From contig NZ_MWLL01000201.1 of assembly GCF_002198675.1 (NCBI RefSeq), forward strand, positions 1-48,844: DNA of 48,844 bases, given 5' to 3'. Both the position numbers and the translations under genes were made by a program. Under the pieces are notes generated by a model that had not been told where the DNA came from, made no database searches, and saw only the letters and a list, made by a program, of their open reading frames with translations. Origin of the DNA: Kineosporia sp. R_H_3 (lineage in GTDB: Bacteria; Actinomycetota; Actinomycetes; Actinomycetales; Kineosporiaceae). Below, piece by piece: positions 23,580 to 37,108 of the stretch (position 1 is the first letter of the stretch; the number at the start of each line of letters is the position of its first letter).

Positions 23580-23708
23580 ATGCAGAACCTCTTCCCCTAC
23601 GGTGCCCCCGTCGTCGTGGTGATTATCTACGTGGCGGTGATCCGGCTGCGGGGCATCCGATGCGGCCCCTTCAGCATCACCTTCTTCGACCGCGGCCCCA
23701 CGTCCTGA
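23580..23708 (+). CDS. small single-pass membrane protein
   Basis: A 42-residue gene of the kind common in actinophages. ATG 23580 follows GGAG at 9-nt spacing. The protein has a single membrane helix at about residues 8-24 (APVVVVIIYVAVIRL), then a short tail with RCGPFSITFFDRGP. Function unknown; holin-like or superinfection-related roles are possible but not shown. It converges on the minus-strand gene ending at 23712, only 3 bp away. Confidence 0.5.
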   Translation: MQNLFPYGAPVVVVIIYVAVIRLRGIRCGPFSITFFDRGPTS

Positions 23709-23711
23709 CGA

Positions 23712-23942: not shown

Positions 23943-23953
23943 CGCCGAAGGCG

Positions 23954-24235
23954 TCAGCCGTCGACGTTGACGTCGAACTCGGAGGAGCCGTCGGTGCCGC
24001 CGCGAGCGGAAGCACGGACCCGGTAGCCACCCACGGCGAGGACGATCACCGGGACGGCGAGAATGACTAGGAGCCAGCCGCGGTAGATGCCAGGAGCTAG
24101 CCCGCCGCCGCCTGCGAAGAGGTCGATGAGCGGGACGCCAATGACGACCAGCACCATGGCTGTGACCGTTGCGACGAAGACGAACGTGAAGGCCCACGCT
24201 TGGGGCCTCGGGGGGTGGCTGCGACGGTCGGCCAC
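23954..24235 (-). CDS. small membrane protein with two helices
   Basis: A 93-residue protein with membrane helices at about 15-38 (FTFVFVATVTAMVLVVIGVPL) and 52-70 (WLLVILAVPVIVLAVGGY), a Gly-rich loop between them, and a polar tail ending in EFDVNVDG. No family is recognised. I took GTG 24235 because GGAAGGAG stands 9 nt upstream; GTG 24289 would add 18 residues without support. It is followed by the short gene at 23942. Both sit in the accessory region. Confidence 0.55.
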   Translation of the reverse strand: MADRRSHPPRPQAWAFTFVFVATVTAMVLVVIGVPLIDLFAGGGGLAPGIYRGWLLVILAVPVIVLAVGGYRVRASARGGTDGSSEFDVNVDG

Positions 24236-24333
24236 AGGCACCATCTCCTTCCGATCGGCGAAGCCGTCCGGACGCAAGGACTTGGGCACGACACACCTGG
24301 CCGGTAGTCTCCAAACTGCGACGTAAGGAAGAC

Positions 24334-24385
24334 GTCCCCCGGCGAAGCGGGCCAGCCCCCGCCTCTACCCGGGGGACTTCTTTTT
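24334..24385 (+). terminator. strong rho-independent terminator on the plus strand
   Basis: A 9-bp perfect outer stem (24334-24342 with 24369-24377), an inner GCGGG/CCCGC hairpin, and then TTC plus five T. This is a classical intrinsic terminator, rare in such GC-rich DNA. No plus-strand protein gene precedes it, so it may end a small RNA. Confidence 0.75.
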
Positions 24386-24505
24386 GCGCGGCTGCGGATT
24401 GAGCCGCGGATTCACAACGTACTCGGGGCCTTGGACAGGCGTGCGGACGCTCACTCCCCCTGCGCACCAACGGGAACGGGGGGCAGACTTGTACACAAAG
24501 CCGCT

Positions 24506-24925
24506 CTACCGTTCCCACCAGGGCCGACATGGCTGGTCATCGAGCAAGATCCATCCGATCGCCTCTTCCATTGTGTCGTAGATCACACGGACACCATCCC
24601 GGCGATCACACACCAGTGCGACTGCCATCCCCCAGACGTCCACGAACCGGCCGCGCCGGTCGCGGCGCTCGACGAGGAACCGCAAGAGCGCAGACCGCTC
24701 GGCCTCGCCGAGGAGGTCGAGGCGGCGGGCCAGCCGTCCAGGCTCCCCGACGCCCCCGGCCCGGAGGAGAAGCGCGAGGATGTCCGCCGTCCGGGCCGTC
24801 CCTCCGGGCAGATGGTGGGCCATCTCGTCGAGGGCGTCCGCCAGGGAGTTGCGGGCGTCCTCCTGAACGAGGGCGATGGCGGCCCGGAGGTCGGTCTCGG
24901 CGAGACTTTGACGCAAACCGGTCAT
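24506..24925 (-). CDS. unknown helical protein, accessory-region family
   Basis: A 139-residue, mostly alpha-helical protein: LRQSLAETDLRAAIALVQEDARNSLADALDEMAHHL, a middle TADILALLLRAGGV, the conserved block RLDLLGEAERSALLRFLVERRDRRGRFVDVWG (key part RGRFVDVWGMAVALVC), and a C-terminus ending in PWWER. No known domain is recognised. ATG 24925 has no clear Shine-Dalgarno, so translation may be leaderless. A shortened copy of its second half lies at 23712-23942, with about 115 bp of high DNA identity. The gap downstream (24386-24505) contains no visible gene. Confidence 0.55.
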   Translation of the reverse strand: MTGLRQSLAETDLRAAIALVQEDARNSLADALDEMAHHLPGGTARTADILALLLRAGGVGEPGRLARRLDLLGEAERSALLRFLVERRDRRGRFVDVWGMAVALVCDRRDGVRVIYDTMEEAIGWILLDDQPCRPWWER

Positions 24926-25036
24926 GGTGCAAACGACATTTGACGCAACCCCGTTGTGGCTGCTAGGACGGACGACAGGACGCCCCGAAGTCCGGAGAGA
25001 CCTAAACAGTCTTGCTCCGGACAAGGGAGGCCCACG

Positions 25037-25387
25037 GTGGCTGGCGTCGATCTCACCAACATCTCCGATGTGCTGCCGTACGTCCTCCCTACAGCGGGAG
25101 CTGTCGGTGCCGTCGTGTGGGGCTTCCTCCGGCGCCGCGGACGTGAGGTGCAGAGGTTCGGCGCGCGTGCCGCCGAGTCCCGCCTCGTTCGGACCGCGGG
25201 GTGGGCGTGGCTCATGAAGTTGCACGGCGTCGCGCCGGAGCGGGTCGCGGTGTTCGTCGAGGACGCGGCGCGCAAGAGCCAGGGGCTCACGGCGAGGGCG
25301 AGTCCGGAGGAGTCGCCCCCGAAAGCTCCCCAGGCGCCGGAGCTGCGCGTCGTCGACGGGGCCGGCGTCAGCGAGGGTGAGCTCTAG
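25037..25387 (+). CDS. small membrane-anchored protein, unknown
   Basis: A 116-residue protein. GTG 25037 has GGGAGG at 6-nt spacing. A membrane helix lies near residues 10-28 (VLPYVLPTAGAVGAVVWGF), followed by the basic stop-transfer FLRRRGREVQRF, an amphipathic middle, and a Pro/Ala/Glu-rich tail. The layout, an N-terminal anchor with a cytoplasmic basic domain, is common among phage accessory proteins; a holin role cannot be claimed. It converges on the frameshifted gene at 25390 with a 2-bp gap. Confidence 0.55.
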   Translation: MAGVDLTNISDVLPYVLPTAGAVGAVVWGFLRRRGREVQRFGARAAESRLVRTAGWAWLMKLHGVAPERVAVFVEDAARKSQGLTARASPEESPPKAPQAPELRVVDGAGVSEGEL

Positions 25388-25389
25388 CC

Positions 25390-25793
25390 CTATTCGAGCC
25401 GGCCGAGGGTCCAACCCTGGACCTCGCTGATGCGCCCACGCCAGAAGGAGCGCGGGGTGTACGACCGTTAGGACCTACAACCTGGGCCTGCGCGACGTGG
25501 ATGAAGTCGGGGCTCTTGAGGTAGGGCGCCGACTCAGTCATGAGCTCGAGGTCCTCCGCGTCGTCCGGGGGCGTCATGCCGGCGAGGAAGCGGATGGTGT
25601 CCCCCGTGCGAGACATGCCCTCGGGGATCGGCGACCCGTCATCGAGGGCGTCGAGGGTGGCGGCGAGGCCCTCGAACCATTCGTCCGCCCGGAGGAGGTT
25701 GCCGGTGATGAGGGTGCCGCCCACTGTGAGCGTGATGCCGGTGCCGCCTACCGGCGCTGCCCTGGCGAGGGCGAGGAGAAGGCTGCCACCGGA
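25390..25793 (-). pseudogene. frameshifted actinobacterial protein of unknown function
   Basis: The frame reads LLLALARAAPVGGTGITLTVGGTLITGNLLRADEWFEGL and on to PDFIHVAQAQVVGPNGRTP, then drifts into nonsense. The proper C-terminus (PRSFWRGRISEVQGWTLGRLE, stop at 25390-25392) is found in another frame. One extra C in the C4 run near 25457-25460 would restore a single protein of about 135 residues. The 5' end also lacks a usable start; the frame begins against the stop of the gene at 25801. I have seen this LLALA...GGTGITLTVGG family in many actinobacteria but know of no function. It is a pseudogene or carries a sequencing error. Confidence 0.65.
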
Positions 25794-25800
25794 AGAAGGA

Positions 25801-26517
25801 TCAGGGGATGAGGGTCTCGGCGTAGGGCAGGCGCACAAGCTTGACGTCGTTGCACTTGGCGGTCGTGCCGTCCCCAAACTCGACCTCTGTATCGCTGTTG
25901 ACTGTGTACTTGATCGTTCGCCATCCACCCGTGAGGGTGCGTCCGTCGATGGGGAGGTGGTTCTCGACTCGCTGCTTGATCAGCTTCACCAGTTGCTGTG
26001 GAGTGGTGATCTCGAGCAACTGGGGGCGGCCAGCAAGATCTGACATCCCGTCAAGGAACGAAGATGCAAACCGCGCCCGACCTTGCACACGCGCAGCGGA
26101 AGCGACGCCACGAGCGATGACGTCACTAGCCACGACGACTGCCAGACCAAAGGCAGTTGCAGCAGCGACCACGGCTGTCGCCAAGATCAGGGCGACTGTG
26201 ACCTCCTTACCTGCCGTCTCTACGAAGGAAGCTACAGTCGACGCGACAGTTCCCAAGAAGGTGAGGAGGCCACCTGCGCCTCCGATGGTCTGAAGTGCGC
26301 GCCTGGAGAGCGTCATTGTTCCGGCGCGGATGACCTGGACGGCCGAGTCGGTTGTCGCGAAGGCCTCGTCCTTGCTTGCCAACTTGTCGTCTGGAGTCAT
26401 GAAGTGCAGGCGTACAGCCGCCTCGGCAAGTGAGGGCCCGTCACTCAGTGGGAATCGTAGTGCCTTGTCCGTCTGGACGTATTGGGACGGAGTCGTCTTG
26501 AGAACTGGTTCGGTCAT
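25801..26517 (-). CDS. unknown protein with a central two-helix membrane segment
   Basis: A 238-residue protein. ATG 26517 has GAGGGGG at 5-nt spacing. An N-terminal soluble part (1-70: TTPSQYVQTDKALRFPLSDGPSLAEAAVRLHFMTPD) is followed by membrane helices at about 85-105 and 112-138 (VALILATAVVAAATAFGLAVVVAS) and a C-terminal soluble domain with EFGDGTTAKCNDVKLV. No family is recognised. GC is lower than in the host genes. It is upstream of the frameshifted gene at 25390 with almost no gap, so the two may once have formed an operon. A hairpin at 26600 isolates it from the right. Confidence 0.6.
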   Translation of the reverse strand: MTEPVLKTTPSQYVQTDKALRFPLSDGPSLAEAAVRLHFMTPDDKLASKDEAFATTDSAVQVIRAGTMTLSRRALQTIGGAGGLLTFLGTVASTVASFVETAGKEVTVALILATAVVAAATAFGLAVVVASDVIARGVASAARVQGRARFASSFLDGMSDLAGRPQLLEITTPQQLVKLIKQRVENHLPIDGRTLTGGWRTIKYTVNSDTEVEFGDGTTAKCNDVKLVRLPYAETLIP

Positions 26518-26599
26518 CACAGCCCCCTCAAGGTGCCATATGTAACCATCGCAGCACCGCCTGTGACGGGCAACTAGTGCCCGAACGTCCTCCAAAACA

Positions 26600-26629
26600 G
26601 AAGGCCCCCTGTAAGAATAGGGGGCCTTC
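26600..26629. terminator. hairpin terminator
   Basis: A perfect 11-bp stem (26600-26610 with 26619-26629), an 8-nt loop, and C/T-rich sequence after it. It is symmetrical and could stop transcription from either side. Confidence 0.65.
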
Positions 26630-26641
26630 CTCGTGCTGGAG

Positions 26642-26770
26642 TCAGTTGCCGGCCTCGCGGTAGGCGTCGATGACTTCCTGCTTGATGCAGGGAGGCGCTA
26701 CGGCAAGCGTCGCGCGGCCTGGACTGCGGTCAAGTGGGTGCTGGTAGGGCAGGGGAGCGTCGTGGTGGCG
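26642..26770 (-). pseudogene. possible C-terminal gene fragment
   Basis: A short minus-strand frame ends ...PPCIKQEVIDAYREAGN and stop (26642-26644), with codon use like real genes (third positions mostly G or C) but no start codon; an in-frame stop precedes it after about 43 codons. It looks like the tail of a lost protein. The plus strand is also open here, so the call is weak. Confidence 0.25.
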
Positions 26771-26823
26771 TAACTACTGGGGCTGACTAGTCGATAGATC
26801 AATCATGAGGCTGTCAGCAGCGG

Positions 26824-26829
26824 TAGCCT
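26824..26829 (+). promoter_or_regulatory. TAGCCT -10 box for a leaderless mRNA
   Basis: TAGCCT ends exactly 6 nt before the ATG at 26836, so transcription would begin at or next to the start codon. No Shine-Dalgarno is present, which fits. Identical hexamers occur upstream of the gene at 28685 (28581 and 28635). Confidence 0.5.
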
Positions 26830-26835
26830 GCATAG

Positions 26836-27861
26836 ATGGTCGAAGATGCAAGCGCCTTAGACGCAGAGATCGTTAGGGCCGTCGAGTCTCTGACGCATCA
26901 GGTACTGCAAGCCCAAGCATATTGGGAGCACGTAGATGATCTTCCAGTAGAGCTTCAAACGATTGCGTCGCTTGCCCATGCTGTGCTCGAACTCGTTGAC
27001 AGGGTTCCAGACCTCGTCGATCTGTCAGATTATCCCTTTCGCCGAAATGATGAAGCAGTGGAGATTGGAGGACTATCTATAGCTGTGGCACATTTGCGGC
27101 GAACCGATCCTAAGGATCAAGTCCTCAATTCCTTCTTTCAAGTCTGTAGCAAGGTCTTCACGCTCGTTGATAACTATGCAGATGCGTCTGGGAATAGCGT
27201 CCTCTTCAAGTCAGATACACTCTCTAAAGTTCGGGTGCGGGATCTCCGCGACAATTGCCGCGCTGTCAACAGTCTTATTGAGAGCGCTGCAAAGCTTGAG
27301 AAAATCAGTAGCGCCGTTGAGGTGGCTGAAGGTGCAGCACAGGAGGCTAAGCAAGCTGCTGGTGTTGCAGGGGTAGCCACACTCACAGGCCACTTCGCCG
27401 AGTTTGCCAAATCGCAATCGCTCGCTGCCGCCTGGCGCCAGGCCGTAACAGTGCTGCTCGTTGGCTCGGTAGTCGGGATCGGCGTCTTCAGTGTCGTGCA
27501 GAAGCAAATCCCGGCAGGCTGGGGAGCTGAGACGGTGTTCAAACTGACGCTGTCCCTTCCGCTACTCGCTCTTGCTTACTACTTCGCCCGCGACGCATCT
27601 AGACACGCTCTCGCGGCTCAGCGAGCCAGAGAAATCGAAGTCCGTCTGAAGACTCTTGGTGCCTTCACCTCTGAGCTGACCGACGAGGTCAGACTGGACG
27701 TGAGGTCAACTTTCGCCAAGGCGCTCTACACCGTCGTTGACTACGGCGACAGCGACGCCAAGGAAGCCAATGCGCTGGGCAAGGAGCTCACAGACACCGT
27801 CAAGGTGCTCGCTGAGGCAGTAGCCTCCATCGCAGGCAAGGCCAAGGACGCAGCAAAGTAG
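26836..27861 (+). CDS. coiled-coil, two-helix membrane protein of unknown function
   Basis: A 341-residue protein, not recognised. Residues 1-190 are largely helical (ESLTHQVLQAQAYWEHVDDLP, RDLRDNCRAVNSLIESAAKLEKISSAVEVAEGAAQEAKQAAG) with coiled-coil character. Two membrane helices follow at about 204-222 (AVTVLLVGSVVGIGVFSVV) and 234-252 (LTLSLPLLALAYYFA). A C-terminal helical domain (REIEVRLKTLGAFTSELTDEVRLDVRSTFAKAL) ends in KAKDAAK. The ATG is preceded by a -10 box at a leaderless distance. It is the first gene of a plus-strand operon with 27870 (8-bp gap). Codon use and GC are clearly lower than the host's. The shape recalls membrane-anchored partners in bacterial conflict systems, but that is analogy only. 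Confidence 0.65.
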   Translation: MVEDASALDAEIVRAVESLTHQVLQAQAYWEHVDDLPVELQTIASLAHAVLELVDRVPDLVDLSDYPFRRNDEAVEIGGLSIAVAHLRRTDPKDQVLNSFFQVCSKVFTLVDNYADASGNSVLFKSDTLSKVRVRDLRDNCRAVNSLIESAAKLEKISSAVEVAEGAAQEAKQAAGVAGVATLTGHFAEFAKSQSLAAAWRQAVTVLLVGSVVGIGVFSVVQKQIPAGWGAETVFKLTLSLPLLALAYYFARDASRHALAAQRAREIEVRLKTLGAFTSELTDEVRLDVRSTFAKALYTVVDYGDSDAKEANALGKELTDTVKVLAEAVASIAGKAKDAAK

Positions 27862-27869
27862 GAGGACTA

Positions 27870-28529
27870 GTGGGTTCCGAGCACCCGAACATGCGGCCGC
27901 CGGGGCGTGCCGCTGAGTTCCCAGATGTGTACAAGGTCTGGGGGGTACGAGAGGGCCTGCTGTTTGGCACATACGAGGGAGTCGACACGCACGGTGATAC
28001 CACCTACAGTGTTCGATCCAATCTGCTGACGGCCACCTTCGGCTACGCCGATACGTATTACGGGAAGTTGACGGAGGATCTCAACCGCTCCGCGCGCGTT
28101 ATGCGGGACTTCAGTGCACTCTCGCTGCTGCTGCGACTGGAAGACCACCCAGAGACTACGTACACCGTCCAACGCATCTCTCAGGCGTCCCCGTTACTCA
28201 TCTGGCTGACGGTGACCGTGCCCGCCGCCGCTTGGGGTATCAAGGTAGCGGTGGACCGTCTTTGCCAGGCTGCGAATACCGTCGGCGACACGCGACTTCA
28301 GATGTCTCAACGGAGAGCAAAGCGGGCCGTCTATGACGCTGTGGCGGACCACATCAACTCAGTTCCTATCGAAGACCTGATGCCGCGCAGATCGCGTAAT
28401 TCCATTATTCAGCAGGCGGCGCGGTCCATACTCGCCATCAGCAGCCTGGAGAACCCTGCCCCCAGCGAAGCGCAAGATCTTCTCGCCGAGCCACCGGCAG
28501 CCCTTCCTCTGATGCCCCGTCAGGAGTAG
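27870..28529 (+). CDS. unknown protein with one central membrane helix
   Basis: A 219-residue protein, not recognised. GTG 27870 has AGGAGG four bases upstream, and its Shine-Dalgarno spans the gap after the stop of the preceding gene, so the two are cotranslated. An N-terminal beta-rich part (KVWGVREGLLFGTYEGVDTHGDTTYSVRSN) and a helical part with LTEDLNRSARVMRDFSALSLLLRLE lead to a membrane helix at about 111-130 (LLIWLTVTVPAAAWGIKVAV). The cytoplasmic tail is basic (RRAKRAVYDAVADHI, PRRSRNSIIQQAARSIL). Probably a membrane partner of the 26836 protein. The gap downstream to 28684 holds two TAGCCT promoter-like boxes. Confidence 0.6.
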   Translation: MGSEHPNMRPPGRAAEFPDVYKVWGVREGLLFGTYEGVDTHGDTTYSVRSNLLTATFGYADTYYGKLTEDLNRSARVMRDFSALSLLLRLEDHPETTYTVQRISQASPLLIWLTVTVPAAAWGIKVAVDRLCQAANTVGDTRLQMSQRRAKRAVYDAVADHINSVPIEDLMPRRSRNSIIQQAARSILAISSLENPAPSEAQDLLAEPPAALPLMPRQE

Positions 28530-28580
28530 TCACTTCGGCCCATATGCGCGTGGTGTCCGCCTTGTGCCCGGACCAACGTC

Positions 28581-28640
28581 TAGCCTCCATACGCGGGGAA
28601 GCGAGCGGTACGGAGTGATGTCGGGCCCACGATGTAGCCT
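28581..28640 (+). promoter_or_regulatory. two TAGCCT -10-like boxes before the 28685 operon
   Basis: TAGCCT at 28581-28586 and again at 28635-28640 are embedded in a 155-bp gap. The same hexamer drives the 26836 gene at leaderless distance. Here a GAAGGG Shine-Dalgarno is present, so a leader of about 38 nt is expected from the nearer box. Confidence 0.4.
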
Positions 28641-28684
28641 CGCTTCCCACATCAGACAAGACGAGGCGTGAAGGGCTCTCACCG

Positions 28685-29494
28685 ATGGCTGAACGGCACA
28701 GCAAGACACCGAGCGCTGCACCGGCTGAGCCCCCTGTCGCGAAGGTTCGCCGTACGCCGCTCTCGCAAGAGAACGTTCCATCCATGTCGCTGGAGCAGGC
28801 ACTGCGTGTACCTCGAGCCATCGCGGAGAACTACGCCTTCCAGCCGACACGGCCCCTCAACGTGGCCGGCGCCGTGGGCATGAGCCCATCGTCGGGGACC
28901 TTCCGGATGATCACTGGTGCTTCGATTGCCTATGGCCTGACCGCAGGTGCTGCACAAGCCCCAGAGATCGGGCTCACGGCGCTGGGCAAGCGCATCGTCC
29001 GGCCGACCACCGAGGGGGATGACGTCGCCGCCAAACGTGAGGCGATCTTGCGCCCCAAGGTCGTAGGGGAGTTCCTTCGGCAGTACGACGGTGCACAGCT
29101 ACCCGCTGACCAGATCGCCAAGAACGTCCTCCAGGACAAGGGCGTACCAGTAGACCGCCTGGACGATGTGCTCGAGTTGATACTGGAGAACGCCCAGTCT
29201 GTCGGCTTCATCAGAGAGATCAACGGCAAGCGCTACGTAGACCTAGCCGCAGCTGCTACCGCGACCGCAGAGGCGGAAGCGCCGGCCGCAGAGCCTGAGA
29301 CTGCCTCGAACGGGACACTTCCAGTAGTCCAGCAGCCCAGTCAGGCGTATGCGGCACCGCACGTTGCAGTCGGGCCCGGAATCCACATCAACATCGAGAT
29401 TCACATTGCCGCGGACGCGACGTCAGAGACGGTCGAAGAGATCTTCAAGAACATGCGGCGGTACGTGCTGAATGGAGACGGGACGGCTGACTAA
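28685..29494 (+). CDS. winged-helix-like accessory protein, possible conflict-system regulator or adaptor
   Basis: A 269-residue protein. A disordered, basic N-terminus (1-35) precedes a conserved block: SLEQALRVPRAIAENYAFQ, TRPLNVAGAVGMSPSSGTFR, ITGASIAYGLT, ALGKRIVRPTTEGDD and AKREAILRPKVVGEFLRQYDGAQLP, then NVLQDKGVPVDRLDDVLELILENAQSVGFI. This reads as two winged-helix-type units (about 40-110 and 120-195). I recall similar proteins in accessory islands of many bacteria, with no established function. An Ala/Pro/Glu linker leads to a C-terminal GPGIHINIEIHIAADATSETVEEIFKNMRRYVL strand-helix unit. ATG 28685 has GAAGGG at 9-nt spacing. The stop overlaps the next ATG (TAATG), giving tight coupling to the 29494 protein, so the two very likely act together. 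Confidence 0.7.
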   Translation: MAERHSKTPSAAPAEPPVAKVRRTPLSQENVPSMSLEQALRVPRAIAENYAFQPTRPLNVAGAVGMSPSSGTFRMITGASIAYGLTAGAAQAPEIGLTALGKRIVRPTTEGDDVAAKREAILRPKVVGEFLRQYDGAQLPADQIAKNVLQDKGVPVDRLDDVLELILENAQSVGFIREINGKRYVDLAAAATATAEAEAPAAEPETASNGTLPVVQQPSQAYAAPHVAVGPGIHINIEIHIAADATSETVEEIFKNMRRYVLNGDGTAD

Positions 29495-30063
29495 TGGCCG
29501 ATCAACTGGACGCCGACCTACTCCGTCGGCTTCAGGAGTTCCAGTTCAGTGTGCGCCGACAGGTCAGCAGTCCCGTCGAGCCAGTAGTGCATGCCCGGGG
29601 TCCGCTGTCCGAGCGTGAAGCGGGCATCTTGGATCGGTTGCACAAGCTCTCGCCTAAGCTGGCCGCGTCGATGGAGCAGGCTCTGCGGGATCTCAACGAC
29701 ACGACAAGGCTCAGTTACATGGGTCCGGCCGGTGAGGTACGCGAGGTCATGCGCGCGGCCACTCAGCAACTTGCGCCCGATGAGGACATCCGCAAGCAGA
29801 CCTGGTACCTCGGCATCAAGCAGGGCGACAAGATCAATCCCAGCCAAAGTGAGCGCATTCGGTATGCGGTTCAGCAGAAGGGTGGCAACCGCGACCAGGT
29901 AAAAGGCGTAGATGACATGATCGACGAGTTGATCGGTCAGATCGGTCGCCGTACTTACCAATCCGGGAGCAAGTCTCTGCATGCTGGAGCAACACGAGCG
30001 CAGGTTAGCAAGCTAGTGGGGTGGGTGTTCGCCATCCTGGACGAGGTTCTACCCGAGGCCTAG
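29494..30063 (+). CDS. protein resembling predicted conflict-system (pPIWI-associated type) nucleases
   Basis: A 189-residue soluble helical protein. Its core, SEREAGILDRLHKLSPKLAASMEQALRDL..., VREVMRAATQQLAPDEDIRK, TWY, then SERIRYAVQQKGG and a C-terminal ...SLHAGATRAQVSKLVGWVFAILDEVL, follows the pattern I remember for the predicted pPIWI-associating nuclease family and related abortive-infection proteins: a helical bundle, a central R-I-R-Y motif and a late [KN]-x-x-H-x-x-A/S. That resemblance comes from memory and needs a profile search. ATG 29494 shares a base with the preceding stop (TAATG). The pairing with a winged-helix protein inside a phage-like region supports a defence or toxin-like role, by inference. 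Confidence 0.55.
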   Translation: MADQLDADLLRRLQEFQFSVRRQVSSPVEPVVHARGPLSEREAGILDRLHKLSPKLAASMEQALRDLNDTTRLSYMGPAGEVREVMRAATQQLAPDEDIRKQTWYLGIKQGDKINPSQSERIRYAVQQKGGNRDQVKGVDDMIDELIGQIGRRTYQSGSKSLHAGATRAQVSKLVGWVFAILDEVLPEA

Positions 30064-30876
30064 GCAACGGAGGTCGCCATGACAGTCGAATCGATCACTA
30101 CCACCGGTGTCAGGCTGCTGGTGACATTTGATGAGCGCCGTCTGGCAGCGGAGAGAAAACACCGTCATTCTGTTTAGCGTCAACCATGCGGGTCGGCTGG
30201 GCGCCCAGTTGGCTGGCCTAGGTGCACTTACCGTGTTCTCGGCGTTCGCGAGACCGATCTGCGCCTTGGTCGTCGCGTGCGGGTTACCCGTCCTCGAGGT
30301 ATGAGCGCTGAGGTTGCCAGCAGCAGCAGCAGAAGCTACAGCGGCGTCAGCTGCTGCCTGAGTTGCTGACACAGGTTTGGACGCGTCCGAGGTGTTGTCG
30401 ACGTTTGGTAGCCCGACATCGGTCTTAGTGAGGTTCAGGTCGCCCTTGAGCTGGTCGGCCGTGCGAGAGGTCCAGGCGCTGGCCTTCCGCTGAAGCACCG
30501 CGTCGTCGCTGGGGGGCAGAGCCGCGATCGTGGTCAGGTCGGCGTCGAGGGGCTGCTTGGTGGCAAGTCCTGATGTCAACGACGAAGCAGACGCTCCTCC
30601 GAGGTTGGAGAGCGCCGTGGATGGGCTGGCGACGTCCGCGGAGTTCTGAGATCGGCGCGTGTAGCGGCCATCTACCTCAGTTGTGTCCAACTGGTGCTTG
30701 TGGTCGCGGCGTGAGGCTTGGTTGGCCGTCCCGCTGGTCGAGGCGGTGAGGCCGATGCTGGTGGGGGAGGCGATGGTGTCATCGAACGAGGCGCTGACGC
30801 CCGGAGGACCCTGCACACCGATGGTCTTGACGACAACGCGGCCGCCGTTGGTAACCGTCACAGTCTTCCGGCTCAT
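30049..30876 (-). CDS. phage tail-fibre-like protein, 3' end apparently replaced
   Basis: An open frame of 275 codons. The first 220 are tail-fibre-like: TVTNGGRVVVKTIGVQGPPG at the start (collagen-like GPPG), SRRDHKHQLDTTEVDGRYTR, then repeat units of the kind NLTKTDVGLPNVDNTSDASKPVS and HTSRTGNPHATTKAQIGLANAENT. After ENT (about 30232) the sequence loses this character and continues to a stop at 30049, antisense to the operon on the plus strand, so the natural C-terminus is missing. ATG 30876 overlaps the stop of the upstream gene (ATGA), showing an operon with 30873-31223. Such fibres recognise the host surface. It is probably non-functional here. Confidence 0.75.
   Translation of the reverse strand: MSRKTVTVTNGGRVVVKTIGVQGPPGVSASFDDTIASPTSIGLTASTSGTANQASRRDHKHQLDTTEVDGRYTRRSQNSADVASPSTALSNLGGASASSLTSGLATKQPLDADLTTIAALPPSDDAVLQRKASAWTSRTADQLKGDLNLTKTDVGLPNVDNTSDASKPVSATQAAADAAVASAAAAGNLSAHTSRTGNPHATTKAQIGLANAENTVSAPRPANWAPSRPAWLTLNRMTVFSLRCQTALIKCHQQPDTGGSDRFDCHGDLRCLGLG
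30079..30177 (+). CDS. 32-residue open frame with a strong ribosome-binding site, probably a cut gene
   Basis: ATG 30079 has GGAGG exactly 5 nt upstream and lies 15 bp after the 29494 gene's stop, as a third operon member would. It encodes MTVESITTTGVRLLVTFDER and then 12 more residues before a stop at 30175. The last part runs into the minus-strand tail-fibre sequence, so it looks like the 5' end of a longer gene cut by recombination near 30170-30230. Confidence 0.4.
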   Translation: MTVESITTTGVRLLVTFDERRLAAERKHRHSV

Positions 30877-31223
30877 CGGGTGACCTCGCGGTTGACGGTC
30901 ACCTTGCCCTCAAGAAGCGGGTCCTGGGAGCCATCCGAGTAGTAGAGGAAGAGGTCGTAGACCCCGCTCATCCACGGAAGCGCCAGAGTCTCCTCATCGG
31001 TCAAACGGAGGGTGATGGTGCTGGCCGTTAGGTCGATGGTTATCCGACCGTTCTCCGTGGACAGCTCCAGGAGCACGTCTTCAGCGCCCTTGTGAGAGCG
31101 AATCTGCATCTTGGCGGATGCGCCTGTCAGGTCTACGTTTCCAAGAGCATCTTGGTACCCTAAGACGCTCGAAAAGGTGGCGTTGCGCTTGATGACGATG
31201 TCGTGGAGGCCAGCGAGTTCCAT
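30873..31223 (-). CDS. phage tail-associated small beta protein (BppU-like)
   Basis: A 116-residue beta-rich protein: HDIVIKRNATFSSVLGYQDALGNVDLTGASAKMQIRS..., GRITIDLTASTITLRLTDEETLALPW, then YDLFLYYSDGSQDPLLEGKVTVNREVTR. This is the pattern of phage baseplate or tail proteins that precede tail fibres (BppU N-terminal-like). It overlaps the tail-fibre gene by 4 bp (ATGA), giving coupled translation. ATG 31223 lacks a good Shine-Dalgarno, and the open frame continues upstream to 31316 without sense, so this start is a best guess. Confidence 0.7.
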   Translation of the reverse strand: MELAGLHDIVIKRNATFSSVLGYQDALGNVDLTGASAKMQIRSHKGAEDVLLELSTENGRITIDLTASTITLRLTDEETLALPWMSGVYDLFLYYSDGSQDPLLEGKVTVNREVTR

Positions 31224-31305
31224 GCGGTAGTCCGTCAATGGGCGTCGCTGGACTCGCGACCTACTCCCAGTATATAGCGAAACCCGGGAGAGGAGGAATA
31301 GAGAC

Positions 31306-32325
31306 TTGGAAAACAAGTCGCATCATGCCGCGACGGTAGGACTAGTACTAACCGCGATCAGTCTTGCATTCCTAGCTGTCAGTCTTATTGAACTGAAGCC
31401 GCAAGATCCAAGCTCTCGCCCTCCCATAGCGACAACGGACCACATAACACCCGTCGATACGAGAACTCACCCTGGAACGCCATCTCCTACGGGTGGAACT
31501 CAATCCCCAAGCCGTACATCCACTCCGAGCGGTACGACTAGTCCACCAACTTTCCTCCCATCAAGTTCACCGCCCTTAGCGTTACCCGATGTCCTGAAGT
31601 CTTGCGTAGAAGGATTGCTCGCATTCCGCAAGCCGGAGCGTATGCGCGCTGGCGACACAGAAACCTTTGTTGTAAACCTTGGTGCTGTCGGCGGTTCTCA
31701 ATCGCCCGGGACGGGCATCCCCGGAACGGGCCGGGTTCAAACGCGAGGGGTAGCCGCTTGCCCGGAAATGTACGCAACGCTGACCGGCGACGACTTCAAG
31801 GTTGAACGCGCAGACGGCTCGGACGCAGATGCAGTACGGCTAGTGGGTGCCGATAGCCTCGCGTCTTGGCAATGGCGGATCACGCCAAATTCTGGAGGAG
31901 AGCGCGAGCTCTACGTAGCTCTATACTCCGTTCAACAGGGCAAGCCACGTACGTTCCTTACGAGGTACACAGAGACGATCACAGTTGACGTAGCGGCGAC
32001 TCGCAAGGTTGGGTCCGTGCTGAAGTGGTCGCAGAGCTACGGCCTAAGCATCCCGGTGCTTGGTTTGGCCGCCTGGGGCGTGTTCCGCTACTGGCGGGCA
32101 TCGAAGAAGAAGCCAGACCCCAGTAACGGAAATATTGTGATCCAGATACCGCCTGATGCCGACGACGTCGTGCTATCGGTCACGGGAAAGGACACGGCAA
32201 CAGGCGGCGGAAAGTACAGCGCCGCCAAGACAGCCCCTTCAGCCAAGAAGGCTGTAGCGAAGAAGTCCACACCTGCAAAGAAGACAGCGGCCACGAAGTC
32301 ACCTCCGGCTCCTCCGCAGCCCTAA
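31306..32325 (+). CDS. membrane-anchored protein with Thr/Ser/Pro linker, beta domain and Lys/Ala/Pro tail
   Basis: A 339-residue protein starting at a TTG with a strong GGAGAGGAGGA Shine-Dalgarno 8 nt upstream. In order: membrane helix at about 8-28 (ATVGLVLTAISLAFLAVSLI), a Thr/Ser/Pro-rich linker (30-92), a beta-sandwich-like domain (about 95-230, with AFRKPERMRAGDTETFVVNL, MYATLTGDDFKVE, WQWRITPNSGGERELYVAL, ETITVDV), a second helix (about 248-265), a GNIVIQIPPDADDVVLSV segment and a histone-H1-like KKAVAKKSTPAKK tail. The beta domain recalls modules attached to caspase-like and TIR conflict proteins, by memory. It heads a small plus-strand operon. No known function. Confidence 0.65.
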   Translation: MENKSHHAATVGLVLTAISLAFLAVSLIELKPQDPSSRPPIATTDHITPVDTRTHPGTPSPTGGTQSPSRTSTPSGTTSPPTFLPSSSPPLALPDVLKSCVEGLLAFRKPERMRAGDTETFVVNLGAVGGSQSPGTGIPGTGRVQTRGVAACPEMYATLTGDDFKVERADGSDADAVRLVGADSLASWQWRITPNSGGERELYVALYSVQQGKPRTFLTRYTETITVDVAATRKVGSVLKWSQSYGLSIPVLGLAAWGVFRYWRASKKKPDPSNGNIVIQIPPDADDVVLSVTGKDTATGGGKYSAAKTAPSAKKAVAKKSTPAKKTAATKSPPAPPQP

Positions 32326-32343
32326 CAACTGAGGGTGAGAAGC

Positions 32344-32484
32344 GTGGCCACCGAGCAGTCACCTCCGCGTAGCTGGGTGCGGGGTCTGGCATCGAACGTG
32401 CTGGCAAACCTCGTGGCGGCTGGGGTAGTTGCGCTGCTTGTGGGGCTGTATGGGCTTGCGAGATCCTGGACTGGAAGCAAATAG
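32344..32484 (+). CDS. 46-residue single-pass membrane protein
   Basis: A short gene 18 bp after the 31306 gene: GTG 32344 preceded by GAGGGTGAG. The protein is VATEQSPPRSWVRGL, then a membrane helix at about 18-38 (NLVAAGVVALLVGLYGLA), then RSWTGSK. Its position and the matching membrane topology suggest a partner of the upstream protein. No family recognised. Confidence 0.5.
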   Translation: MATEQSPPRSWVRGLASNVLANLVAAGVVALLVGLYGLARSWTGSK

Positions 32485-32501
32485 GTATTACCTTCGCATT
32501 C

Positions 32502-32622
32502 GTGGCGGTGGGGATATTCCTGCTGCTTGGATGTTGGGCCTGTATTGACGAGGCGGCAACTAACCACCCTGACTCATCCATGATCGGGAAGACGCTGTAC
32601 GGAATCTGGTACATCGTAAAAG
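32502..32622 (+). pseudogene. membrane-protein gene cut by the IS3 element
   Basis: A frame with a hydrophobic start (VAVGIFLLLGCWACIDEAATN), then HPDSSMIGKTLYGIWYIVKG, is interrupted at the left inverted repeat of the IS. The frame is open upstream as well (CEILDWKQIGITFAF), so the true start may lie inside the preceding gene. It would have been the third gene of the 31306 operon. The rest is not found on the other side of the IS. Confidence 0.45.
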
Positions 32623-32662
32623 GGAGCCTGACCCGGTTTCCCGGACACCATCGGTGTGGTGT

Positions 32663-33538
32663 TCAGGCCGCGGTGTGGGCCTGGGTGTGGGCTCGTTCGT
32701 AGTCGATCGGGGACAGGTAGTCCAGTCCTGAGTGGCGGCGGACGGGGTTGTAGAACCCTTCGATCCATTCGAAGATCGCGGTCGCGAGCTCGTGCCGGCT
32801 GGTCCAGGTGCGGCGGTCGAGGAGTTCGCGCTGCATGCTCGACCAGAACGACTCGATCATGGTGTTGTCCACCGATGAGGCGACCCGTCCCATGGATCCG
32901 AGCAGGCCGGCGGAGCGCAGCCGGTGCCCGAAGACCCAGGACGTGTACTGGCTGCCTCGGTCCGCGTGGACGATCGTCCCGGGGTCGGGGCGGCGTCGCC
33001 AGCGGGCCATCTCGAGGGCGTCGACGACCAAGTCAGAGCGCATGTGGTCGGCGATCGACCAGCCCACGATGACCCGGGAGTAGACGTCCAGGACGGCGCA
33101 GCAGTAGACCCTCCCCTCACTGGTGGGGTGCTCGGTGATATCGGTGCACCACAACCGGTTCGGGGCATCGGCGACGAAGCGCCGCTTGACGAGGTCGGCG
33201 TGCGGGGCGGTGTCCGGCCGGCGTCGGCGGTGTTTGCGGCGACCGCCGATCCCGGCCAGACCGGCGTTCCGCATCAGGCGGGCGACCCGCTTGCGTGCCA
33301 CCGCGAGGCCGAGGCCCAGACGGAGCTCGGCATGCACGCGCGGGGCGCCGTAGCAGCCGCGCGAGGCCTCGTGCACGTCTTCGATCGTCGCGGTCAGGCC
33401 GGCGTCCTCGATGGCCCGCGCCGAGGGTGGTCGGTCGCGCCATTCGTAGTAGCCCGAGCGTGAGACGCCCCAGGACCCGGCAGGACACCGCCACGGAGAA
33501 GCCGTCGGCGGCGAGCTCGTGGACCAGCCGGAACCCTA
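32663..33538 (-). pseudogene. IS3-family transposase OrfB (DDE integrase), frameshifted
   Basis: The catalytic part (to about 33376) is intact: HEASRGCYGAPRVHAEL (HTH_21), then the rve core with first Asp in LWCTDITEHPT, second Asp in VHADRGSQYTS and the Glu in DNTMIESFWSSMQREL, followed by IEGFYNPVRRHSGLDYLSP. The N-terminal part (IGFRLVHELAADGFSVAVSCRVLG) is in a different frame. A run of four C on the plus strand (33468-33471) in place of three accounts for the shift; with three, the junction reads VLGVSRSGYYEWRDRP as expected. Normal OrfB is made by -1 slippage from orfA at the A-AAA at 33539-33542. The element is inactive as sequenced, or the run is miscalled. Confidence 0.85.
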
Positions 33539-33823
33539 TTTTGGGAGCACGTTCTCCCGGGCGAAGTACGCCGAGGCCCGCTTCAGGATCTCGATCTCCA
33601 TTGCCTGGACCCGGTTCTCGCGTCGCAGCCGGACCAGCTCGGCACGCTCGTCGCTGCTCAGGCCTTCCTTGCGGCCGGCGTCCACGTCGTCGCGGTCCAT
33701 CCACCGCCGCAGGCAGGACTCGCTGATCCCGAGATCCTTCGCGATCGCGGCGACCGGCTTCTCGCCGAGCCGGACCAGGTCCAGGGCACGGCGACGGAAC
33801 TCCGGCGGGTGCGGGGCAGGCAT
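33536..33823 (-). CDS. IS3-family transposase OrfA (HTH protein)
   Basis: A 95-residue OrfA: PEFRRRALDLVRLGEKPVAAIAKDLGISESCLRRWM is the helix-turn-helix that binds the inverted repeats, and SSDERAELVRLRRENRVQAMEIEILKRASAYFARENVLPK is the leucine zipper and tail typical of the group. ATG 33823 lies about 40 bp inside the right inverted repeat. Its last codons (CCA AAA TAG) form the slippery site from which the OrfAB fusion transposase is made by a -1 shift. Confidence 0.92.
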   Translation of the reverse strand: MPAPHPPEFRRRALDLVRLGEKPVAAIAKDLGISESCLRRWMDRDDVDAGRKEGLSSDERAELVRLRRENRVQAMEIEILKRASAYFARENVLPK

Positions 33824-33889
33824 CACAGGACTCCTCTCCGAGACGATCATCGCCTCAGGACAGGTGTCCGGGAAACCGGGTCAGGCTCC

Positions 33890-34035
33890 AGGCGCTTGCG
33901 GCCAAGCTCGACTGGCTCTGCTCGCGCTCCAGCTCCGAGATGGACCGAGAGAAGGCAAAGGCCTTCAAGGTCGCCTACGTGCAGTTCTCCGAGGAGGTGC
34001 TAGCTCCCGAGTACGCCGAGGCACTCAACCGGTGA
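33890..34035 (+). pseudogene. 3' fragment of a phage gene beside the IS
   Basis: Forty-eight codons (GCG at 33892 to TGA at 34033-34035) encode ALAAKLDWLCSRSSSEMDRE and ...AFKVAYVQFSEEVLAPEYAEALNR. The frame is open to the IS edge, so the 5' part was lost on insertion or deletion. The stop overlaps the GTG of the glycosyltransferase (GTGA), which shows that they once formed an operon. Confidence 0.6.
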
Positions 34036-34787
34036 GGACAACGATCGTCCTCCCAGTCTCAAGAGCCGACTACCTCGATCGGGTGTTCTACGCCCTGGAG
34101 ATGCTCACCTGCGACGCCAAGCGCACGGGGCTCCTCGTACTCGTCGACGGCGACCAGGAGCTTGTGACCACGGCTCAGACCTACGTGGAGCAGTCCAAGT
34201 CCGCGGAGCGCCGCTGTGTGCAACGCGACGACAGGTCACCCGTCACTCATGGCATCCCAGAGCGCCGACAGCGGATCGCGAACATCCTCAACGAGCTGAA
34301 GACCATGGTGACCAGTGAGTACGTCTTCGGGCTCGAGGACGACACCATCGTTCCCCGCATGGCACTTCAGCGCCTGTATGAGACCTACGCGCTGTTCCCG
34401 CACGCTGGGTTCGTCAGTGGAGTGGAACTGGGGAGGTGGGGCATCGCGCACGTCGGGGCATGGCTCGCTGACAACGTCTACGAGACGATCAGCCTCAAGA
34501 CTCCTCCGATGGGGGAGGGCATCCAGCCGGTCGACGCGGCTGGCTTCTACTGCTTCCTCACCAAGACCCAGCACTACCGCAAGCACACGTTCAAGCCCTA
34601 CGAGGACGCCCTCGGTCCAGACGTTGACTTCGGGCTCGCTCTGCGGCGCAACGGCTATCAGAACTACCTCAACTGGTCTGTGGCCTGCGAGCACCGACGT
34701 AAGGACGATTACCTCAAGCTCGGTCTGACCCCGCTCCAGGAGATCGAGGTGAAGCTAGAGGGCGGTGAATGGAAGGTGTGGATCTAG
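34032..34787 (+). CDS. phage-type GT-A-like glycosyltransferase
   Basis: A 251-residue protein resembling family-2-like glycosyltransferases in actinophages. Seen: VRTTIVLPVSRADYLDRVFYALEML at the start, LLVLVDGDQEL, the metal-binding-like acidic motif FGLEDDTIVPRMALQRL (EDD near residue 103) and a C-terminal YEDALGPDVDFGLALRRNGYQNYLNWSVACEH block. It probably glycosylates virion proteins, DNA or host surface from a nucleotide sugar; the acceptor is unknown. GTG 34032 overlaps the stop of the truncated gene before it. It ends tail-to-tail with 34784, with a 4-bp overlap. Composition is moderately GC-rich, closer to the capsid gene than to the AT-richer neighbours. Confidence 0.75.
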   Translation: MRTTIVLPVSRADYLDRVFYALEMLTCDAKRTGLLVLVDGDQELVTTAQTYVEQSKSAERRCVQRDDRSPVTHGIPERRQRIANILNELKTMVTSEYVFGLEDDTIVPRMALQRLYETYALFPHAGFVSGVELGRWGIAHVGAWLADNVYETISLKTPPMGEGIQPVDAAGFYCFLTKTQHYRKHTFKPYEDALGPDVDFGLALRRNGYQNYLNWSVACEHRRKDDYLKLGLTPLQEIEVKLEGGEWKVWI

Positions 34788-35497
34788 GCGGGCTTCTCCC
34801 AAACGGTGACGTCGAACGCGACCTTCGACGCGGATACGGAGATGATCTTCATGACCGCCAGGCGCTTCTCGCCCGTCATCAGGCAGACGCTGTACCCGGT
34901 CCTCAGTCTTGACACTTCAACGCCGTCGCTGGCCCCGATCTCTGTATTCGCAAGGCAGCTGGCATACGTAGCAGCAGACTTCACGAGGGCGATCTGAGAG
35001 AACTTGAAATCAACGTTTCCGTTGTAGATGCGGCCGATGTCGCCGAGAGGCGTATTGCCGCGCCCCCACTGGGGGTCGTCCTGCGGCGCATCTAGGTCCG
35101 CCGGCCCAGAGTCCTGTGTGACGATCAGCGGCCCCTTGTGCCGGACGTCTGGAGTCGCAGGCGATGACGGATCCACTGAGGTGGACGCACCAGCGTCGGC
35201 CAGTTGGCTCTTGAGCGCTTCGTTGTCCGTCTTGAGCTGATCGCGCTCCGCAGCGACCGAGGCAGACGCCGAAGAAACAGCCTGAAGCTCCTTGGACACG
35301 TCAGCGCTCTGGTTCTGAGCAGCCGAGACTTGGGTTACTGCCTCCTGCTTCTGGTCAGACTGGTTCTTGGCGAACAGGCCGATTACCGCTACGCCAAGGG
35401 TGAGAACGGCTGTGAAGACGGCCAAGAGCTGCACGATTGACTGAAACTTCGCAGCACGCGCCTCGTAGAATTCCTTGCCCGGTGGTGGCGTGCTCAT
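34784..35497 (-). CDS. membrane-anchored coiled-coil protein with a C-terminal RHKGP/ADLD domain (paralogue 1)
   Basis: A 237-residue protein. A cytoplasmic start (STPPPGKEFYEARAAKFQ), a membrane helix at about 19-44 (LLAVFTAVLTLGVAVIGLFA), a coiled coil (about 48-105, ending SASVAAERDQLKTDNEALKSQL), a Pro/Ser linker, then a C-terminal beta domain with RHKGPLIVTQDSGPADLDAP, QWGRG, two cysteines (YASC and YSVC) and a final KVAFDVTVWEKPA. The domain matches a common actinobacterial module (ADLD...C...T..G..A.....V....V..DVTVW) of unknown role. It is downstream of its paralogue at 35547, separated by 49 bp on the same strand. The ATG at 35497 has only a distant GAGG. Confidence 0.65.
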   Translation of the reverse strand: MSTPPPGKEFYEARAAKFQSIVQLLAVFTAVLTLGVAVIGLFAKNQSDQKQEAVTQVSAAQNQSADVSKELQAVSSASASVAAERDQLKTDNEALKSQLADAGASTSVDPSSPATPDVRHKGPLIVTQDSGPADLDAPQDDPQWGRGNTPLGDIGRIYNGNVDFKFSQIALVKSAATYASCLANTEIGASDGVEVSRLRTGYSVCLMTGEKRLAVMKIISVSASKVAFDVTVWEKPA

Positions 35498-35546
35498 ATG
35501 CGTGCGAGGACCTCTCTGGATGGCTGAGATAGATGGCCGTTAGTCT

Positions 35547-36284
35547 TCAGCCCGGGAGTTCCCACGTAGTGACGAAGTAGCTGATGCTCTGCGACTTGAT
35601 TTCCGTGATCTTCATGGTGGAGGTTCTGCCGTCGCTGGTGTAGACACAGATTGTCCACCCTGGCTTCATACTGGCTAGCTCGTACCTGAGGCCGCTCTCT
35701 AGCGTGGCCGCTTGGCAAGTTGTATAAGTCGCGTTTCCCTTGATCAGTGAAGTCTTGCTGAAGAATGTCTGGTTAACAGCTGCCGTTCCAAGGTCCTTGG
35801 TGCCGCCGCCGTTGCGCCCCCACTGTAGGTCATTGCTCGGGGAATCGAGATCTGCATAACCCGTTTTCGGAGTCACAGTGATTGGTCCCTTGTGGCGAAT
35901 CTCGGGGACCTGTCCGGGGGGATCGGTTGAGACCGCCGTAGTACCGCCGAGGTCTTTGATCTGCTCTGCCAGTGAGCTGTTCTCGGTCGTCAGGCGGCTG
36001 TTCTCCGACTGGAGCTTGTCGCGCTCATCTGCGACGCTGGCCGACGCTGAACTAATTGCAGCAACCTGGTCGGTTGCAGCAGCACTCTGATCCTGAGCAG
36101 TCGAGGCGACGGTTTGGGCCTCTTCCTTCTGCTGGGTCTGGATCGTTGCGTAGATGCCAAGTCCAGCAGCAACGAGGGTCATGATCGCCCCTAGTGCTCC
36201 GAACGTCGCGGTCCAACGCTGAGTCCGAGCTGTCTTGAGCTTGAGCTGGTCCTCAGTCAGAGGAGCGCGCTTGGTGTTCGCCAT
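35547..36284 (-). CDS. membrane-anchored coiled-coil protein with a C-terminal RHKGP/ADLD domain (paralogue 2)
   Basis: A 245-residue paralogue of the preceding entry. A basic start (MANTKRAPLTEDQLKLKTAR), a membrane helix at about 25-48 (TFGALGAIMTLVAAGLGIYATI), a coiled coil (SASVADERDKLQSENSRLTTENSSL), then EIRHKGPITVTPKTGYADLDSP, LQWGRNGGG, cysteines in YTTC and WTIC, and SYFVTTWELPG. Identity is highest at RHKGP, ADLD and QWGR and in the coiled coil SSASASVA-ERD. The two genes form a likely operon arising from tandem duplication and diverge from the terminase-like genes on the plus strand. Function unknown; heteromeric signalling pairs would be a reasonable idea. Confidence 0.65.
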   Translation of the reverse strand: MANTKRAPLTEDQLKLKTARTQRWTATFGALGAIMTLVAAGLGIYATIQTQQKEEAQTVASTAQDQSAAATDQVAAISSASASVADERDKLQSENSRLTTENSSLAEQIKDLGGTTAVSTDPPGQVPEIRHKGPITVTPKTGYADLDSPSNDLQWGRNGGGTKDLGTAAVNQTFFSKTSLIKGNATYTTCQAATLESGLRYELASMKPGWTICVYTSDGRTSTMKITEIKSQSISYFVTTWELPG

Positions 36285-36390
36285 GCCCTATGCCCCGTTC
36301 GCAGTAGTCCCCTCGCTGAGCGCAGCGTACCTGTGACGTTTCGCGGGCGTTCGCGGTTGCTGGGACTCGTAACATGACCAGAGTTGTCCT

Positions 36391-36918
36391 ATGATTGGAT
36401 CAATGGAACGAGCAGCACCACAAGACTTGACGAATGCCCCAGAAGGTTTGGAAACCGGAAAACCTAAGCGCCGTGGCGGTCCTCAGCCTGGCTATGGTCG
36501 CCCCAAGGGCAAGCTCTCGAAGACCACACTTGATCGGATCAAGGTTCTCGAGGAGATCCGCCAGCGGGTAGCTCGCAACGCTGATCAGCTTCTCAACGCT
36601 CAGATGAGCCTTGCCGTTGGCAACGTGCTTCTGTTTCGGGTTGACCAAGATGAGAAGGGCAAGGAACTGCCGGCCGTCCAAGTAACGAGCGCCGAGGAGA
36701 TCAAGGCCTATATCGACGGTGACACCGAGGGCGAGTGTGATTACATCACGGCCAAGCTCCCCGACAACAAGGCGATCGACTCGCTCCTGGACCGGACCTT
36801 CGGTAAGCCAGAGCAAAGCATCGACCTCAAGAGCAAGGGTAAGCGGCTGACGGCCGCCCCCGTGATCGTCTCAACCATCAAGCCTCGCGATGCTGACTCT
36901 CAAGACCAAGCAGCATGA
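36391..36918 (+). CDS. small-terminase-like phage protein
   Basis: A 175-residue, mostly charged protein: KPKRRGGPQPGYGRPKGKLSKTTLDRIKVLEEIRQRVARNADQLLNAQMSLAVGN, a middle beta section (VLLFRVDQDEKGKELPAVQVTSAEEIKAYID), then DYITAKLPDNKAIDSLLDRTFGKPEQSIDLKSKGK. The GGPQPG...GRPKG start and the DRTFGKPEQ motif are typical of phage proteins encoded just before a large terminase, likely the DNA-recognition subunit. The 3' end overlaps the terminase start by 29 bp. The start is uncertain: ATG 36391 or 36403, with no clear Shine-Dalgarno. Confidence 0.65.
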   Translation: MIGSMERAAPQDLTNAPEGLETGKPKRRGGPQPGYGRPKGKLSKTTLDRIKVLEEIRQRVARNADQLLNAQMSLAVGNVLLFRVDQDEKGKELPAVQVTSAEEIKAYIDGDTEGECDYITAKLPDNKAIDSLLDRTFGKPEQSIDLKSKGKRLTAAPVIVSTIKPRDADSQDQAA

Positions 36919-37108
36919 GGTCATCGAGGCAGTCAACGACCCGCGTGTAAGCACGATCGTTCTGATCGGGGCCGTGGGGACTGGCAAGACTGATGTGGCC
37001 GCCCACGCCACGATCTCCATCGCCTACGGATTCCCCAAGACCGACTGGCCGGTCTTCAGACAGAACGTCTCGACAGCCAAGCGGTCGGTGATCCCGTCCT
37101 CACCGTGA
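36890..37108 (+). pseudogene. terL: phage terminase large subunit, only the first 65 or so codons
   Basis: The reading frame starts MLTLKTKQHEVIEAVNDPRV and contains the ATPase Walker A GAVGTGKTDVA and NVSTAKRSVIPS, as in TerL packaging motors of 450-550 residues. After about residue 69 (near 37097) phage-like sequence ends and the frame runs through SP into a stop inside host-like DNA. The Walker B and nuclease domains are missing. It marks the right edge of the foreign region. Confidence 0.8.

Follow-up and report, generated by a model that had tools for sequence, protein, structure and literature searches.

A tandem pair of stalked membrane proteins from Kineosporia sp. R_H_3 ends in a two-cysteine domain shared with actinobacterial protein kinases and predicted to fold like HmuY-type lipoproteins

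In the window, by which we mean the whole stretch of 48,844 bases that was analysed and which makes up an entire contig of Kineosporia sp. R_H_3 (NZ_MWLL01000201.1), two adjacent genes encode paralogous membrane proteins of 245 and 237 amino acids, both of which end in a two-cysteine domain. This domain represents a genuine family for which the searched libraries contain no curated model. As the family is used mainly to form the outer terminus of kinases and membrane-bound regulators, sensing or binding of an extracellular ligand is its most economical function, and we consider, at roughly even odds, that the pair are surface-displayed ligand-binding modules of the sensor or receptor type.

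Table 1. Location of the gene pair, its parts and the island that carries it, in window positions
Feature	Position	Strand	Evidence
Acquired island on which the pair lies, together with genes for capsid, tail-fibre-like, terminase-like and transposase proteins	20274..37099		BLASTN breakpoints against two congeners, GC, gene matches
Upstream gene, encoding a stalked type II membrane protein of 245 aa that ends in the domain	35547..36284	-	ORF, alignment, hydropathy
Downstream gene, 237 aa, paralogue with the layout of the 245-aa protein	34784..35497	-	ORF, alignment, hydropathy
Transmembrane segment of the 245-aa protein, residues 30-48	36141..36197	-	hydropathy
Transmembrane segment of the 237-aa protein, residues 24-42	35372..35428	-	hydropathy
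Coiled-coil stalk of the 245-aa protein, ~residues 49-112	35949..36140	-	heptad pattern; a/d enrichment matched by 23/2000 shuffles
Coiled-coil stalk of the 237-aa protein, ~residues 45-104	35186..35365	-	heptad pattern; a/d enrichment matched by 68/2000 shuffles
Two-cysteine C-terminal beta domain of the 245-aa protein, residues 127-245	35550..35906	-	family alignment; AlphaFold model of residues 119-245
Two-cysteine C-terminal beta domain of the 237-aa protein, residues 117-237	34787..35149	-	family alignment
Candidate ribosome-binding sequence AGAGAGG, 13 bases 5' of the ATG of the 237-aa gene	35511..35517	-	sequence; inference

The gene pair

The two genes, which a sequence-only reading of this DNA had placed at 34784-36284, were found there as open reading frames separated by 49 bases in the ORF list. 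Their products are 39% identical over 233 columns (E 2e-45 in a single comparison), and the motifs RHKGP, ADLD and QWGR, described in that reading as conserved between the paralogues, are common to both in the alignment of the pair. Its description of a membrane anchor, a coiled coil and a two-cysteine C-terminal beta domain was likewise borne out by hydropathy, by heptads and by an AlphaFold model that is all beta with one helix.

Each protein has one strongly hydrophobic segment, the best 19-residue window having a mean Kyte-Doolittle value of 1.90 in the 245-aa protein and 2.58 in the 237-aa protein, and the tails before these segments are 29 and 23 residues long, respectively. In the 245-aa protein the N-terminal tail carries a clear positive charge (6 K/R vs 2 D/E); in the 237-aa protein the tail is hardly positive, and the two sides of the membrane segment differ little in charge (3 K/R and 2 D/E before, 3 K/R and 4 D/E after). 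No kinase domain was found in either protein by Pfam scan, and ~23-29 residues precede the membrane segment. Exactly two cysteines are present in each protein, all of them within the C-terminal domain (residues 181 and 205 in the 237-aa protein, 190 and 213 in the 245-aa protein). A scan of 34600-36500 found neither promoters nor terminators.

Both stalks, recognized by their a/d heptad enrichment (Table 1), end in a zipper with the identical a/d series V-R-L-N-L. The main indel of the paralogues lies in this zipper and spans exactly 7 columns, that is one heptad, the stalk of the 237-aa protein being the shorter one; being seven residues long, it keeps the heptad register V..R..L..N..L. A functional coiled coil could accommodate a length change of exactly one heptad, which favours dimers. 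Judging from the stalk, the proteins are probably dimeric.

The C-terminal domain family

No Pfam family exceeded its cut-off in any of the 25 aligned copies of the domain, and in six carrier proteins NCBIfam produced no match to the domain above its cut-off. A survey begun from six sequences detected the domain in at least 31 of 394 class genomes, the window's own included. Using a 25-row profile, we found it in 29 of 41 genomes of a genus that, to judge by its relatives, is probably Streptomyces, in 10 of 58 related genomes and, in a phylum survey, in at least 7 of 396 genomes, one of them outside the class; an 11-row profile found it in at least 11 of 396 genomes of the order. The many-genome surveys scored 7 to 18 candidates per genome, their counts being lower bounds, and how coarse they are can be seen from the 7 of 396 in the phylum against the 29 of 41 obtained by the finer search in one genus. 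The claim that the domain is common in actinobacteria is therefore correct for the domain but not for the exact RHKGP...QWGR wording, which is particular to the pair. Within the window's genome the domain is confined to the pair (2 matches, with the single protein and with the 25-row profile); it is absent from two congeners and present in 9 of 12 other family genomes examined. A search of genome contigs for related loci gave 9 loci.

The architectures were compared in 84 distinct proteins, and conservation in 77 non-redundant copies (<80% identity), both sets being drawn from best-match loci minus duplicates, flank loci, L006 and L004, the last of which is the protein of L040, which was kept. 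L006 was rejected as a relative, being an SMC-like coiled coil. In 83 of the 84 proteins no more than 10 residues follow the domain, and in 79 a transmembrane-like segment lies before it (hydropathy). A protein-kinase catalytic motif precedes it in at least 26 of them (motif search), a minimum because six non-kinase frames are cut at the 5' end by the locus boundary. Among 20 survey proteins, Pfam assigned a protein kinase to eight (L010, L017, L019, L023, L037, L083, L100, and L106); other carriers contain HTH_31 (L016) or a Swt1-like HEPN domain (L024), and further ones are a PKD protein (L004) and a BTAD (SARP) protein (L005).

Both cysteines are present in all 77 copies, the near-terminal tryptophan in 71, and the Asp or Glu of a D-hydrophobic motif before the second strand in 74; these counts lean upward, the 77 of 77 being partly built in, because the members were found by profiles holding those columns. 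The window pair fits the family as defined here, with a profile match, two cysteines 20-28 residues apart, a C-terminal position and a membrane segment before the domain. In the literature searches no listed title or opening of an abstract dealt with this domain or connected HmuY with ectodomains of actinobacteria, which is no proof of its absence from print.

Several members are of interest on their own. The protein at L024:1483-2532 (-) combines a Swt1-like HEPN domain (1e-17), a membrane segment and the two-cysteine ectodomain, and is possibly an extracellularly controlled RNase-type protein. At L010:1-2244 (+) a protein kinase carries two tandem copies of the ectodomain. Four cysteines, instead of two, occur in the kinase ectodomains of L023, L076, L077, L106 and L109, and such four-cysteine ectodomains make up four of the 77 non-redundant copies.

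By profile and alignment, the window proteins have the domain in common with the C-terminal ectodomains of actinobacterial Ser/Thr kinases (for instance L017, L037, L083, and L100), in which it likewise follows a transmembrane segment. Unlike these kinases, they contain no kinase or known cytoplasmic domain and have a coiled-coil stalk instead. Since the domain ends protein kinases, HTH and SARP proteins, the pair might serve a membrane kinase or regulator of the host as accessory subunit or act as its antagonist, with the free-standing domain competing for, or pairing with, the kinase's own copy. However, with only two copies found in the genome there is no domain-bearing partner kinase, and we hold this explanation to be quite unlikely, although a partner without the domain would still be allowed.

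Predicted fold of the domain

AlphaFold models were obtained for the domain of the 245-aa protein (residues 119-245; pLDDT 80.6, pTM 0.76) and for an Embleya scabrispora copy (pLDDT 82.9, pTM 0.79); both rest on one 11-row alignment, made of the window sequences and nine loci from named genomes, and are not independent. They consist of about eight elements, nearly all of them strands, with one helix that bears the first cysteine. Foldseek gave no match at E 0.001, the best being 0.12. When Foldseek's list was aligned with VIA-align, the same nine Bacteroidota entries (4ei0, 6ewm, 3h8t, 6r2h, 8b6a, 6eu8, 3u22, 4gbs, and 8b61) came out on top for both models, with Z from 9.4 to 5.9 and the next row at 3.7 for the 245-aa domain, and Z from 12.7 to 7.8 and the next row at 5.1 for the Embleya scabrispora copy. 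Even when there is no true match the best Z commonly reaches 7 to 8; the first model lies slightly, the second clearly, above this level. The agreement on nine entries together with the gap in Z below them is a stronger argument than Z alone. The absence of a family from the VIA-align lists was not counted as evidence.

Four of the nine entry titles name HmuY or HmuY-like, and PinO (6r2h), BfrB (8b6a), BfrC (8b61), DUF4466 (4ei0) and BF2707 we take to be of the HmuY type, as their co-ranking suggests. Prediction supports the view that the domain folds like the HmuY-type ligand-binding lipoproteins. A known enzyme or lipoprotein fold, which the sequence-only reading had named as something that would speak against it, is thus in part what emerged, as the predicted fold is that of a lipoprotein type.

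The modelled domain matches 4ei0_B over 120 residues at 2.5 A (Z 12.7) and HmuY over 107-114 residues at 2.7-2.8 A, and the HmuY-type proteins (PF14064; PDB 3h8t, 6ewm, 6eu8, and 3u22) are an exported, ligand-binding type of protein. The two differ in that identity is ~9-15% and in that the domain has ~120 residues as compared with 175-200 in the HmuY type. Unlike HmuY-type proteins, the window proteins have two invariant cysteines, a membrane helix and a stalk, and they have no lipobox cysteine, the only cysteines being the two of each domain. PF14064 was not found over cut-off in any of 24 genomes or in the window's own genome, HmuY was not among the five Pfam families, all below cut-off, listed for 25 domain sequences, and a profile search of solved structures gave 0 matches at E 10.

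The heme ligands of HmuY are His134 and His166, and Tfo has two methionines there, according to PMC6200708. No conserved column of the heme-ligand type was found in the 77 copies of the domain, His reaching at most 24 of 77 and Met at most 5 of 77 in any column. Since neither a His nor a Met pair is conserved, heme binding is not predicted for the family.

Stalked relatives and age of the duplication

The only stalked relative seen was WP_041293814.1 (KRAD_RS23520), encoded on plasmid pKRAD01 of Kineococcus radiotolerans. Like the window pair, it has a membrane helix, a coiled coil and a domain with RH.G and DLD, and it is 24-26% identical to the window proteins (E 6e-12 and 3e-12 in single comparisons). 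Unlike the pair, it is present as a single copy, is plasmid-borne and lies in a run of mostly hypothetical genes. The full-length profile of the pair had matches in at least 5 of 394 class genomes, and those outside the window's genome start at column 102 or later, thus covering the domain and linker, among the matches listed. With the same profile, no second stalked pair was found in the 394 class genomes among the up to 7 candidates scored per genome. Adjacent domain-bearing genes of another layout occur elsewhere, at 14141 and 16507 of G006:C85 and at 1616363 and 1618693 of G900:C1.

Recurrence of duplicated pairs, which had been put forward for a survey, was therefore not observed for the stalked layout, the tandem pair being seen only here among the matches listed. 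The earlier argument that keeping a diverged pair implies a hetero-oligomer or two specificities is not supported as an inference, and the pair is a single observation. A hetero-oligomer or a split of specificity is possible.

In a tree of 77 domains, which has few columns and in which 23 of 74 inner branches are unresolved, the window pair forms a clade (support 98/91) whose two branches measure 0.53 and 0.84 changes per column, which indicates that the duplication is old. A recent strain-level duplication was rejected on account of this clade with its long branches and of the 39% identity, so that on this point the sequence-only reading stands.

The island and its setting

The genes lie on an island of 16826 bases, which by BLASTN replaces ~4255 bases of a pilus locus that is uninterrupted in the congeners G001 and G002. 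In comparison with L067 (reverse complement), window position 20273 continues at base 3441 and window position 37100 corresponds to 7696, and the breakpoints in G001 agree within a base or two. The replaced ~4255 bases comprise the rest of cpaF and further tad-type genes, the latter by ORF reading. At window position 20273 the CpaF-like gene (PF00437) is interrupted at its Walker A region, and the right flank, from 37164, encodes a short-chain dehydrogenase followed by release factor 2. An assembly chimera was rejected, as the flanks keep their order and orientation in two congeners, and this conservation in both argues for a real insertion with deletion. As the island cuts cpaF of the tad pilus locus, the strain is probably without that pilus.

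The GC content is 62.8% in the island and 59.6% in the gene pair, as compared with 74.5 and 72.6% in the flanks. The island contains a major capsid gene (PF05065, 2e-57), tail-fibre-like genes, an rve-type transposase and several membrane or unassigned proteins, and at its right end there is a short, weakly matching terminase- or PhoH-like fragment. It does not have the make-up of an intact prophage but is a rearranged island in which phage genes occur. The earlier description of a phage-derived region is apt for the kind of region, given the capsid gene, the terminase-like fragment, the tail-fibre-like genes and the low GC, but it does not extend to the domain, which had no convincing match in the phage records and viral contigs searched.

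With its broken terminase-like end and its insertion-sequence genes, and absent as it is from two congeners, the island could be decaying and the pair unselected passenger genes on it. Both frames are open, and the motif, the cysteines and the heptad register are kept at 39% identity, which makes this highly improbable.

Other genes of the island were noted as well. The gene at 29494-30063 (+) encodes a 189-aa protein that matches the predicted pPIWI-associating nuclease (PF18165, 1.2e-12) and PADLOC Aga_Nuclease (2.2e-7), its upstream neighbour at 28685-29494 (+), which overlaps it, encodes a 269-aa protein without a match, and the two are possibly a defence-related pair. A 339-aa protein (31306-32325, +) is hydrophobic near its start and after residue 240, with a Thr/Pro-rich linker and a Lys/Ala-rich tail, and no match to it was found in Pfam, PHROG or PADLOC. 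A 341-aa membrane protein (26836-27861, +) has a weak SLATT_4 match (0.029, below cut-off). In the frame behind the pair (33519-34787, +), the end part is weakly glycosyltransferase-2-like (0.013, below cut-off); its first part overlaps opposite-strand transposase genes, so that the true start is probably further in.

Phage, spanin and envelope comparisons

No convincing match to the domain was found in phage records or, in four pattern-seeded scans, in viral contigs, and in a viral fold library no entry reached E 0.001, the best being 0.036. Two Synechococcus phage matches at E 0.6 look like chance. On the strength of these searches the reading of the domain as a phage family was rejected; the domain rather resembles host cargo carried by an island with phage genes.

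Like phage Rz-like spanins, the window proteins have a membrane helix followed by a coiled coil, and PHROG spanin profiles gave weak matches (best 2.7e-4) to ~residues 13-128, that is the membrane segment and stalk. Unlike in spanins, the matches stop short of the C-terminal domain, which they never reach, and the family of this domain is not viral in the searches made. The few weak matches that touch the C-terminal domain are at E 0.33-0.36 in PHROGs and at 0.049 for PADLOC PtuB. An assignment as spanin or division protein was not adopted, since, apart from these few, the hits obtained with PHROGs, Pfam, NCBIfam and PADLOC are confined to the membrane segment or the stalk. A broader possibility is that the pair serves the element which carries it, as a spanin-like lysis module or as a superinfection or entry-exclusion module. 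Its location on a phage-bearing island next to terminase-like genes, the weak spanin matches and the plasmid location of the sole stalked relative would all fit. Nevertheless, those matches leave out the C-terminal domain, no convincing relative was found in phage records or viral contigs, and the home of the domain is in chromosomal signalling and membrane proteins, so we regard such a function as unlikely.

A stalk with an outward domain would also suit a structural or adhesive protein of the cell envelope whose domain binds a wall polymer; the stalk has weak DivIC- and PcsB-like matches, and the PKD-repeat protein L004 carries the domain. These matches, however, concern the coiled coil only and lie below the curated cut-offs, and the kinase and transcription-factor architectures point to sensing, which leaves the envelope role about as unlikely as that of a kinase accessory or antagonist.

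Proposed function

Under the preferred reading of surface-displayed ligand-binding modules, the N-terminus would lie inside the cell, the stalk would form a parallel dimeric coiled coil lifting the domains into the wall layer, the two cysteines may form a disulfide outside the cell, and the domain would bind a small ligand or a surface partner. A single transcription unit would yield both proteins, which would assemble into homodimers or into a mixed dimer, the latter being a guess. Because no cytoplasmic effector domain is present, the pair cannot signal alone as kinases do and would instead bind, present or compete; working as binding modules, decoys or co-receptors would be the most likely way.

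In a wider form, the proposal would be that actinobacterial receptor kinases and one-component membrane regulators sense ligands through a major, uncatalogued ectodomain with the HmuY-type fold, and that mobile elements carry stalked, effector-less, diverged pairs which bind those ligands too, either as decoys or as hetero-dimeric receptors; taken as a whole, this is a speculative and doubtful extension. A common kinase ectodomain without a model in the libraries searched and with a predicted ligand-binding fold is a concrete domain to express and screen, and the small stalked proteins of the window offer such an ectodomain without an attached kinase.
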